9,513 nucleotides of DNA from Caulobacter sp. (GTDB taxonomy: Bacteria; Pseudomonadota; Alphaproteobacteria; Caulobacterales; Caulobacteraceae). Shown here piece after piece: positions 776 to 8,665 of this stretch. Where the stretch lies: contig JACMOF010000308.1 in the NCBI GenBank assembly GCA_014378155.1, positions 1 through 9,513 of the forward strand, written 5' to 3'. The translations under genes and the position numbers were made by a program. Below the pieces are notes generated by a model, which was not told the origin of the DNA, did not search any database, and saw only the letters and a list, made by a program, of their open reading frames with translations. Each line of letters begins with the position of its first letter. Within the stretch, counting starts at the first letter, position 1.

Positions 776-2137
776 TCATGTCGCGGGTTCTTGATCGACA
801 CGGCCCGTCGCCGCACCGAAACGATCCATGACAAGACAACGCGCTCGCGCCTGATCGGTGTCTGCAAGGATCGGGCAAGTCACCCGTCCGGTGGCGTCGA
901 CGATGGCCGGCAGCGAGGCGCGCGCAGCGGCCGGAAAGCCTTTCAGGGCTTGGCGTTGCGCCGGCGGCAGGCGGGCGGCCAGGCCTTGCAGCGGGCGGAC
1001 GGAGAGGCCGGGCTCTATCGCCGTGATCTCATAACGACCGTCCCAAACCAAGGTCCTTCCCCCTAGGGGGAGGCGGTCCGCAGGACCGGTGGGGGGAGTC
1101 GTCGGGCGCGGGATCACGCCCCCCTCCCTCGGCTGCGCCGACACCTCCCCCACAGGGGGAGGACTTGGGCCGCGCCGCGATTCGCCGGGTTCACGGAAGA
1201 AGCCGACGGTGTCGCCCGCCTCGATCCGCGCCCCAGCCAGGGTGGCGGTGAAGGTTTCACCGGACCTTAGCCGATCGACCAGCCGCCGCAGACGCTCGCC
1301 GCGCGGCGGGGTCGCGGTGCCGGCGGCGCACAGGCAAGCGGCGGCGACCTGGGCGGCGGGGGCGTCGCGGGGGAGGATGAGATAGCCTTCTCCTCCCCCG
1401 TGCAGCGGGGTTGGTGGCGCGGCGCCAATAGGCGACGTGACGGATGGGGCGCCAGCGGCGGCGGACGTCCCATCCGTCGGCTTCGCCGCCACCTCCCCCG
1501 TTGCGCTGCGCTCCTCGGGGGAGGAAAGCAACCGCCGCGCCCGGGCCCGGGCATAGGTCACGTCCTCATTGGCCGGATCATCCAGCCAGGTCTCGCCCCG
1601 CGCCGTCAGCCAGTCGCGGAGCTCCACGCGCCCCACCGCCAGCAAGGGTCGCAGCACGAACACCCTCCGCCCCTCTGGCCAGGCCGGCGACGGCGCCCAA
1701 TCGCGGGGGTCGGACACCGTCGAGCCCTCGGCGCGCATGGCGGCGGCCTCGGCCAGATCGCCCTGAGTGTGGCCCAACAGCAGAACGCTGGCTCCGGCCT
1801 CGCGCGTGGCGTCGGCCAGCAGGGCGTGGCGGGCGGCGCGAGCGGCGGCGGGCAGGCCGGTCGCGGGTTTGTCGCCAGTCCACGACAAACCGGATGGTTT
1901 GGCGCCCAAAGCCTGAGCCTTGGCCACGGCCTGGGCGGTCCAGGCGGCGCTGGCGGGGTTGAGCTGGTGATCGACCGTCAGGCTGACCACCGCCCGCCCG
2001 TGGGCGCGGGCCCAGTCCAGGGTCAGGATCAGCAGCGCCAGACTATCGCCGCCGCCGGAGAAGCCGACGGCCAGCGGCGCGGGGGCCGAAGGGCGCAGGC
2101 GGCGGTCCAAGGCGGCGGTGAAGGGGGGGAAGGTCAA
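776..2137 (-). CDS. tilS: TilS, tRNA(Ile) lysidine synthetase carrying two in-frame repeat insertions
   Basis: TilS uses ATP to attach lysine to C34 of the CAU-anticodon tRNA-Ile, so that it reads AUA codons and is charged with isoleucine. It acts in the cytoplasm. The PP-loop motif SGGGDS is at residues 27-32, VDHQL at 55-59, and the region equivalent to HHxDDQAE reads [14 protein letters not shown] (122-135), which departs from the usual DDQ. RPLL and WLDDPAN (163-190) are typical, and residues about 368-425 resemble the TilS C-terminal domain ([13 protein letters not shown]). Residues about 206-250 and 318-360 are Pro/Gly/Ala/Ser-rich and are encoded by two palindromic repeats; without them the protein would be about 365 residues. 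The farthest start is TTG at 2137, because a TGA in the upstream hairpin closes the frame. A second TTG at 2110 is possible. Neither has a clear ribosome-binding site, so the start is uncertain. Confidence 0.93.
1048..1168 (-). repeat. Palindromic repeat A, inserted in frame in tilS
   Basis: The element is about 121 bp with imperfect outer inverted arms (CCAAGGTCCTT at 1048-1058; AGGACTTGG at 1160-1168). It contains two strong hairpins: a near-perfect CCTTCCCCC/GGGGGAGG palindrome at 1055-1073, and CCTCCCCC-ACA-GGGGGAGG at 1144-1162. It encodes about residues 318-360 of TilS without a stop. Positions 1129-1151 match 1477-1499 of repeat B at 21 of 23 bases, and both stretches are read in the same frame. 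Boundaries are estimated from the inverted arms. Confidence 0.8.
1386..1527 (-). repeat. Palindromic repeat B, inserted in frame in tilS
   Basis: The element is about 140 bp. The outer arms are TCCTCCCCCG (1391-1400) and CGGGGGAGGA (1516-1525). Inside are CCCCG-TGCAG-CGGGG near 1396-1410, a perfect 10-bp pair GACGGATGGG/CCCATCCGTC (1439-1448 and 1469-1478), and CCTCCCCCG/CGGGGGAGG (1492-1500 and 1516-1524). It encodes about residues 206-250 of TilS without a stop. It shares a 23-base segment (21 identical) with repeat A, in the same orientation and codon phase. The exact ends cannot be fixed from one genome. Confidence 0.8.
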
Positions 2138-3156: not shown

Positions 3157-3188
3157 CCCTTCCCCCATCAAGGGGCAAGGGGGAAGGG
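3157..3188. repeat. Inverted repeat with CCCTTCCCCC/GGGGGAAGGG arms
   Basis: The 10-base arms at 3157-3166 and 3179-3188 are perfectly complementary around a 12-base loop. The right arm lies inside the heptamer tandem repeat. The C-run/G-run style resembles the palindromic repeats inside tilS, but no shared core was found beyond the C/G tracts, so common origin is only a guess. Confidence 0.5.
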
Positions 3189-3220
3189 GCAAGGGGCAAG
3201 GGGCAAGGGGCAAGGGGCAA
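3172..3220. repeat. Heptamer tandem repeat, GGGGCAA x7 (TTGCCCC on the coding strand)
   Basis: Seven back-to-back 7-bp units occupy exactly 49 bp. Six are GGGGCAA and the second (3179-3185) is GGGGGAA. The array starts 6 bases after the pal stop codon, in the transcribed gap before cpoB. Arrays of short identical units are prone to slippage, so copy number may differ between strains. Confidence 0.9.
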
Positions 3221-8213: not shown

Positions 8214-8390
8214 ATGAAAATCGAGCCTTCCCTGTTCGATGAGATTGATGACGACGCCGAGGCCGCCGCCGACGCGCGGGCCGAGGCCGACGTCGCGGCG
8301 GGCCGCACGATTAGCCATGAGGCGGTCACGCGCTGGCTGGCGTCCTGGGCCAGCGGCGCACCTACGGCGCCTCCCAAGCCAGGTGACTAG
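8214..8390 (+). CDS. Putative antitoxin of a RelE/ParE-type toxin-antitoxin module
   Basis: This is a 58-aa, strongly acidic small protein, rich in Ala, Asp and Glu. Its C-terminal half reads ARAEADVAAGRTISHEAVTRWLASW, a pattern common in short antitoxins encoded just before RelE/ParE toxins (A-G-R-x-[IV]-x-H-E-x-V followed by a W-L-x-x-W segment). This assignment is from recalled family pattern plus context, not from a search. No ribbon-helix-helix DNA-binding domain is evident. The ATG at 8214 is the only sensible start and has no upstream Shine-Dalgarno. The toxin-like frame begins 3 bases after its stop, the usual two-gene arrangement. It is intact while its partner is frameshifted, so it may be an orphan. 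It lies divergent to ybgC and opposite to all neighbours, consistent with acquisition. Confidence 0.72.
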   Translation: MKIEPSLFDEIDDDAEAAADARAEADVAAGRTISHEAVTRWLASWASGAPTAPPKPGD

Positions 8391-8393
8391 GCC

Positions 8394-8665
8394 TTGCGTC
8401 GGGTGATCTGGACGAGCGAGGCCATCGCCAATCTCAACAATATCTTCCGCTATATCGCCGGCTTCAACCCGTCGGCCGCCGCGCGCCTGGCGCAGCGGTT
8501 GCAGACGGCGGCCAATAGCCTGATCGATCATCCCGAACGCGGCGCCCCGCTTCGCGCGGGTTACGCGAACTGGCCGCAATCCATCCCTATCTGATCCGTT
8601 ATCGGTTTTCCGGTGAGACCGTGGTCATCCTGCGCATCCGCCATGGCGCACAAGAGCCAGACTAG
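8394..8665 (+). pseudogene. RelE/ParE-family toxin gene broken by a one-base frameshift
   Basis: From TTG at 8394 the first frame reads RRVIWTSEAIANLNNIFRYI, then RLAQRLQTAANSLIDHPERGAPLRAGY, a good match to the ParE/RelE fold (V-x-W-T/S-x-x-A start, helix pair, H-P-x-x-G). It then runs into ANWPQSIPI and a TGA at 8592-8594, giving only 66 aa. In the next frame, from 8564, the sequence continues RELAAIHPYLIRYRFSGETV and ends with the typical ILRIRHGAQEPD and TAG at 8663-8665. Joining the frames at about 8562-8564 (GGTTA-CGCGAA), with one missing base restored, gives about 90 residues, the normal family length. The lost part includes the last beta strands with the R-x-R-H-G segment, so toxicity is probably lost. 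A sequencing error cannot be excluded. Confidence 0.85.

Follow-up and report, generated by a model that had tools for sequence, protein, structure and literature searches.

Two palindromic repeats of a dispersed Caulobacter family lie in frame in tilS, at linkers predicted to be disordered

The tilS gene of a Caulobacter-like draft genome carries two palindromic segments inside its reading frame. Palindromes within proteins are best known from Rickettsia, where, in our reading, the decay of the genome makes tolerance hard to judge. The present case concerns a free-living genus for which many related genomes exist, and two sites of a single enzyme are seen there empty, full, with one arm, eroded, replaced or nested. 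The whole stretch of DNA that was analysed, 9,513 nt in length, is referred to as the window. It is contig C78 of G000, a draft genome of 3.83 Mb in 598 contigs.

The product of tilS matches PF01171 in Pfam and scores above the cut-off for the TilS N-terminal domain in TIGR02432. It has a PP-loop domain with the SGGxDS motif, and its fold matches TilS structures (the fold search covered mainly residues 1-316). The gene, the two elements that it contains and the motifs around them are listed in Table 1.

Table 1. tilS and its in-frame elements in the window. The bounds of elements A and B are given as far as they could be drawn from the sequence.
Feature	Position in window	Strand	Description
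tilS, tRNA(Ile)-lysidine synthase	776..2137	-	ORF, 453 codons, TTG start as listed
Element A	1050..1166	-	117 nt; two inverted arms, in frame at site A of tilS
Element A, first arm	1119..1166	-	48 nt, read as 16 residues
Element A, second arm, inverted	1050..1099	-	50 nt, read as 14 residues
Element B	1389..1525	-	137 nt; sister subfamily, in frame at site B, after the PP-loop domain of tilS
VWDGR	1034..1048	-	conserved, closes site A
PP-loop motif SGGGDS of tilS	2042..2059	-	intact

Elements A and B share a 23-base segment (1129-1151 and 1477-1499), and the two copies are spaced by 348 bases, i.e., 116 codons. As the first-pass annotation of this DNA had it, the segments agree at 21/23 positions, lie in the same orientation and are read in one codon phase, as G330-E-V-S-A-Q-P336 in A and G214-E-V-A-A-K-P220 in B. 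The highest identity among 500 codon-order shuffles of both stretches was 19/23. A repeat search of the window extended the pair to 31 nt at 87%. Both elements also fold better than all of 200 shuffles, with a fold z of -3.89 for A and -5.80 for B. The annotation went on to call them two copies of one palindromic repeat. This holds in so far as both belong to one dispersed family. However, because A and B can be aligned over 31 nt only, and because B has its own, different full-length relatives, we take them to be two related sister subfamilies and not two copies of a single repeat. The size of the insertion had also been put too high, at about 88 added residues. The window TilS has 453 aa versus 402-404 aa in the homologues P0076, P0077, P0089 and P0104; site A has 42 residues versus 15-17 in empty linkers, and site B has 51 versus 26-33. 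Since the elements lengthen linkers that already existed, the net gain is about 50 residues.

The repeat is not restricted to tilS, which the annotation had made a condition for its view. We found 70 arm cores across G000 at three mismatches or fewer and none with a reversed-pattern control; after de-duplication, 69 arms remained. The core of the first arm of element A (1121-1150) has one mismatch to the family pattern and the core of element B (1469-1498) has two. The best other place for element A in G000 reaches 84% over 120 nt. Relatives of element B are found on C366, C22 and C585 at 76-80%, and these differ from the best full-length relatives of A. A recognisable inverted tail is present in 49/69 arms, giving elements of 106-144 nt. 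The elements resemble MITEs in being small, with inverted arms of about 48 nt, and too short for a transposase gene. The window gave no match in Rfam at the gathering score. Many arms of G000 lie within a few hundred bases of contig ends (C356, C297, C25, C169, C577 and others). It is therefore probable that the assembly broke at the repeats, and the count for G000 is likely a lower bound.

The family was also surveyed outside G000. Within the genus, 57 of 75 genomes have arms with at most two mismatches, and the maximum is 107 per genome. In a survey of the class, 2 of 384 other genomes sampled match, with a single copy each. We provisionally consider the family to be confined to Caulobacter, provisionally because genomes of the same taxonomic family outside the genus account for 3/385 in the class sample. 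A separate observation concerns the outer end of the arm, which in 10/69 G000 arms reads GGGGGAGGA, with an NTG triplet at most 14 nt further on (L002, L004, two in L005, L012, L014, L019, L096, L110 and L114). With such an end the element may give the next gene a putative ribosome-binding site.

Copies inside genes are rare. A frame-blind scan, in which an arm was judged to be inside a gene from the best coding frame on both flanks, placed 3/69 G000 arms in genes, two of them in tilS and the third in a gene for urea carboxylase. The same scan placed 0/53 arms in genes in G003 (47 arms) and part of G002 (6 of its 47 sites). The flank codon scores of the tilS copies are low (0.04 to -0.26), and these copies were counted as interior because the best frame agrees on both flanks and is open. 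The urea carboxylase arm (C551:799, L089) is found at about residue 267, between CT_A_B (1-220) and CT_C_D (295-517). A second C-rich palindromic stretch adjoins this arm.

All three interior arms of G000 use one frame, read as GEVSAQP, GEVAAKP and GDVSAQP. The annotation had offered a single stop-free frame as one reason for such repeated use. We reject this idea. Of the 49 G000 copies with an inverted tail, 32 are open in the used frame, 11 and 37 in the two remaining sense frames, and 34, 26 and 32 in the antisense frames, so that frames other than the used one are open in 11-37 of the 49 copies. Because the other frames are also open and the independent events are few, we regard the repeated use of one frame as suggestive. 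Gene ends were seen to use this frame as well. Two near-identical gene ends in G000 (L105 on C364 and L111 on C520) enter an arm in the tilS frame and stop at the TAG of the arm; they are either duplicated genes or an assembly double. A gene of G020 (L171) ends within an arm in a tilS-type frame.

When proteins were searched with only the peptide of insert A, one protein among 19 candidates was returned, the query's own cluster. A genus search with a 22-residue peptide, a query biased to the used frame, gave one interior copy among the 20 listed matches outside G000 that had an open frame of at least 316 aa with no internal stop. This copy is in the TilS of Root1455 (G019), and the best coding frame is the same on both of its sides. 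Another four matches to the 22-residue peptide have the look of gene ends, of extensions upstream of a gene or of chance frames. In-gene arms number 3/69 and 0/53, so that the independent events behind the description of these elements as tolerated at linkers are few.

Orthologues that lack the inserts exist, as the annotation had anticipated. In a comparison of the window with 18 relatives, inserts of this kind were found in the window, Root1455, Root655 and AP07. Root655 has one arm at site A, and AP07 has a remnant at site A and another repeat at site B. Six of the 18 relatives (L034-L037, L039 and L044) are short at both sites, at 398-400 residues, and two MAGs (L038 and L040) carry yet another insert at site B alone. 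A larger set was drawn from 120 listed of 2201 TilS homologues, which were aligned, classed by motif and placed on a tree built without the insert columns. The tree was made by a quick method and 35/117 of its inner branches are starred; the motif classes are regular expressions, and some rows are misfiled. All 59 rows with an A-type site A fall within one 68-row clade (SH-aLRT 94), to which strain K31 (P0018) also belongs, and the 52/52 rows outside the clade lack A, with 15-17 residues at this site. The annotation had named two findings that would reduce the inserts to ordinary linkers, their presence in all related TilS proteins and a repeat found nowhere else in the genome. We looked at both, and neither is the case.

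Within the clade, site A is found in partly deleted, in-frame states. Of its 59 A-type rows, 37 are full, 19 have the second arm and 3 have the first arm, by motif class (P0030 is classed as first arm though it is nearly full). Among the nine other clade rows, P0054, P0061 and P0066 have a plain site of 15 residues and the rest are short or eroded; short remnants are present in P0051, P0052, P0056 and P0065. On the tree, the presence of A needs 5 changes and the states of site A need 23. The close pairs P0026/P0046 and P0021/P0067 differ by one arm. In the DNA of G015 and G010, CTCCCCCC of the first arm is directly joined to the second arm, in phase. The C-tracts of the two arms of element A share a codon phase, so that a deletion between them would leave the reading frame intact while taking out one arm, in keeping with the large number of one-arm states seen here. 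In G039 (P0060, L222), which is also among the misfiled rows, site A has the second arm in a frame unlike that of the other clade members, and other frames would thus be tolerated too.

Site B has a more varied record. In the 68-row clade this linker is B-type in 32 rows, C-type in 15, B with C in 2, E-type in 5, A-type in 3, D-type in 3 and unclassed in 8. A distant group of nine rows has F-type motifs in six rows, from MAGs, and long unclassed linkers in three. The 42-row empty group has 26-33 residues at this site, and 37 are found in a lone row, P0068. On the tree, the site B label has to change at least 27 times. Close relatives differ in what they carry: the cores of P0004 (Root1455) and P0012 (Root487D2Y) are almost identical, but their linkers are B-type and E-type, respectively, and the close pair P0011 and P0031 has a B-type and a C-type linker. 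P0013 and P0029 combine a C-type head with a B-type tail behind it, the arrangement that a nested insertion would leave. Root655 has an A-type insert at site B, with 83% identity over 108 nt to element A of the window.

Several of these linker types are themselves dispersed in their genomes. The C-type matches 40 distinct places in the AP07 genome including tilS, at up to 92% (best 40 of 134 candidates scored), and the F-type matches more than 20 places in its own genome, at up to 87% (best 40 of 178 candidates scored). In tblastn searches, the E-type of P0054 and P0061 has DNA matches in L086, L140 and L146 (best at 1e-10 or below), the E-type of P0012 has weak matches (1e-5) and the D-type has a single partial match, in L160. 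As a control, the linkers of two insert-free TilS proteins were put through the same tblastn, with no match for one and 2 weak matches for the other. A blastn comparison of C, E and F with each other and with A and B found no match, save for 18 nt shared by A and F at an E value of 0.004. It is likely, as judged from these sequences, that unrelated repeats replaced one another many times at site B. The first-pass annotation, which opposed palindromic inserts to ordinary linker sequence, could not see what the comparison of linkers indicates, namely that several repeat families struck one linker.

The predicted structure (AlphaFold) has pLDDT below 50 only at residues 220-242 and 338-358, that is, within the two inserts, and the linkers with inserts are thus predicted to be disordered, although a low pLDDT does not by itself prove disorder. 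The prediction agrees with the suggestion made earlier that the peptide is tolerated for a structural reason. The pN/pS ratio is 0.35 in the core of TilS and 0.80 in the inserts, values from nine genes that are uncorrected, come from non-independent pairs and include an unsure alignment of the inserts. They indicate a core under constraint and inserts that are hardly so.

Our favoured explanation, held with good confidence, is that the two palindromes of a dispersed family found in frame in tilS likely came there as non-autonomous mobile elements and are probably tolerated because they lie in linkers predicted to be disordered. An element is made up of a pair of inverted, hairpin-bearing arms of about 48 nt, and would have arrived by transposition. 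Where a linker is permissive, ribosomes would translate the element into a Pro/Gly/Ala-rich peptide, and tolerance would be the reason that the insert persists. Deletion between the C-tracts would take away one arm at a time. Site B would serve as a landing pad, with newly arriving repeats inserting into those already present or on top of them, and this linker would turn over as the core of the enzyme stays constrained. The best reading is thus one of mobile palindromes, similar to the Rickettsia palindromic elements (RPE), that would be tolerated at disordered linkers and erode in frame. If this is true, it can be tested whether mobile repeats seed lasting protein segments and what decides where proteins absorb them, and tilS would be a natural experiment on proteins that absorb mobile DNA.

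The inserts could instead be selected, with a long flexible linker tuning the activity, stability or partner binding of TilS and the repeats serving as a convenient source. Site B has 30-64 residues in 68/68 clade rows, whatever the repeat, versus 26-33 in the empty group, and its repeated refilling, with the 27 or more changes on the tree, speaks for selection. The pN/pS of the inserts, at 0.80 versus 0.35 for the core, speaks against it, as do the four clade rows in which site A has shrunk to a remnant (P0051, P0052, P0056, P0065) and the three with a plain 15 residues (P0054, P0061, P0066), and we find this explanation distinctly unlikely. A bolder proposal is that TilS of Caulobacterales is a peptide nursery, in which the interdomain linker is refilled among close species by in-frame palindromes of at least four not recognisably related families, and in which a long disordered linker is favoured and not merely tolerated. 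This is unlikely, although we give it some chance. That tilS is decaying or redundant, so that insertions have no consequence, might be suspected from two inserts in one gene and from their limitation to one clade, but is scarcely credible. The tilS frame is open in ten clade genes (G000, G010, G015, G016, G017, G019, G020, G032, G039 and G059), nine of which gave the core pN/pS of 0.35; the invariant PP-loop residues are retained, the predicted model is one confident fold, and no second full-length TilS is present among the matches listed in the genus search.

Equally hard to credit are ordinary low-complexity linkers that look like repeats through G+C-rich composition alone. The peptides are indeed rich in Pro, Gly and Ala, the genome is G+C-rich, and some E-type and unclassed linkers match DNA weakly, but composition does not account for 70 cores versus a control of 0, a palindromic fold beyond that of shuffles, a match of 84% over 120 nt elsewhere in the genome, or the 0 and 2 weak tblastn matches of insert-free linkers. 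As to the mover, one candidate is a RAYT (Y1) transposase acting on the arms as REP-type elements, in which case this would be an instance of the known REP/RAYT systems. Pairs of inverted hairpins are reminiscent of BIME-like arrangements, and G000 has one Y1 gene. However, Y1 is present in 5 of the 21 genomes with at least 20 arms, leaving 16 of these arm-rich genomes with none, and arm counts with and without Y1 are not significantly different (p 0.20). Across the genus, Y1 is found in 22/75 genomes, and 0/30 Y1 loci (of 33 matches) hold an arm. A RAYT origin is accordingly disfavoured, and we hold it to be very unlikely.

Other features of the window are of note. An inverted repeat of 33 nt, 97% complementary, is located between tolA and tolR (6216-6248/6289-6321), and a palindrome related to it lies between tilS and the next gene (2129-2179). 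By their resemblance, the two would constitute a further palindromic family in the window. A short tandem run of GGGGCAA-like units is found at about 3168-3220, between two genes. At about 8216-8665 there is a small gene pair, which we take from its look to be a ParD/ParE-type toxin-antitoxin module; its second frame is seemingly interrupted by a frame change.

Our literature search, which covered titles and the starts of abstracts with subscription papers mostly out of reach, found no report of such palindromes in the TilS of Caulobacter. The accessible parts of earlier reports already describe repeats in frame, and even repeats that share a site, given the RPE, ERIC, QMITE and REP precedents, including a recB site at which two Xanthomonas species have different REPs at about the same place (PMC3733652). 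What looks new, as far as this search goes, is the family, its host and the deep record of several families at one linker.

CIR elements are about 110 bp long, have two hairpin arms and a linker, and occur in many copies in Caulobacter (PMC2229807). The present family is similar in size, in its two-arm hairpin layout and in genus. In the portion of that report available, CIR elements carry GANTC, are strictly intergenic and have stops in all six frames (PMC2229807). Here, in contrast, GANTC, the CcrM site, is found in 2/69 arms (positions -20 to +45), the frames are often open and three of the 69 arms are inside genes, and we reject membership in CIR. GTAG- and CGTC-tagged REPs are palindromes that occur in ORFs, sometimes twice per gene, according to the part of the source seen (PMC3733652), the main text of which has no occurrence of Caulobacter. 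The consensus arm is without GTAG, and CGTC is on the other strand, overlapping the stem. A RAYT link was not found for the Caulobacter family in the 75 genomes, and the record at one linker described here, unlike that of these REPs, spans many related species and several families.

ERIC/RU-1 and the Coxiella QMITE are MITE-like palindromes of a non-autonomous kind, and some copies are in frame with a gene (PMC2229807; PMC5896051); together with RPE in Rickettsia they provide precedents, ERIC and QMITE in gammaproteobacteria (PMC2229807; PMC10969869; PMC5896051). They differ from the present family in their hosts and apparently in sequence, and the accessible parts of these reports do not describe repeated replacement at one protein site. 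RPE, as far as the sources were available, are dispersed palindromes of about 100-150 bp, some of them fused in frame in conserved genes and encoding a recurrent peptide (PMC2229807; PMC10969869). The Caulobacter elements are likewise dispersed palindromes of this size (106-144 nt for 49 G000 copies), and are in frame in conserved genes with a shared peptide (twice in tilS and once in urea carboxylase, in the same frame). The likeness to RPE that the first-pass annotation had drawn is sound as an analogy in an alphaproteobacterium other than Rickettsia, but does not extend to membership. The host is Caulobacter and in-gene copies are rare (3/69 arms); the family is set apart by host and not by sequence comparison. 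We therefore describe it as RPE-like by behaviour, filed under neither RPE, CIR nor RAYT-linked REPs, and it adds to Caulobacter a repeat family that fits neither of the latter two.
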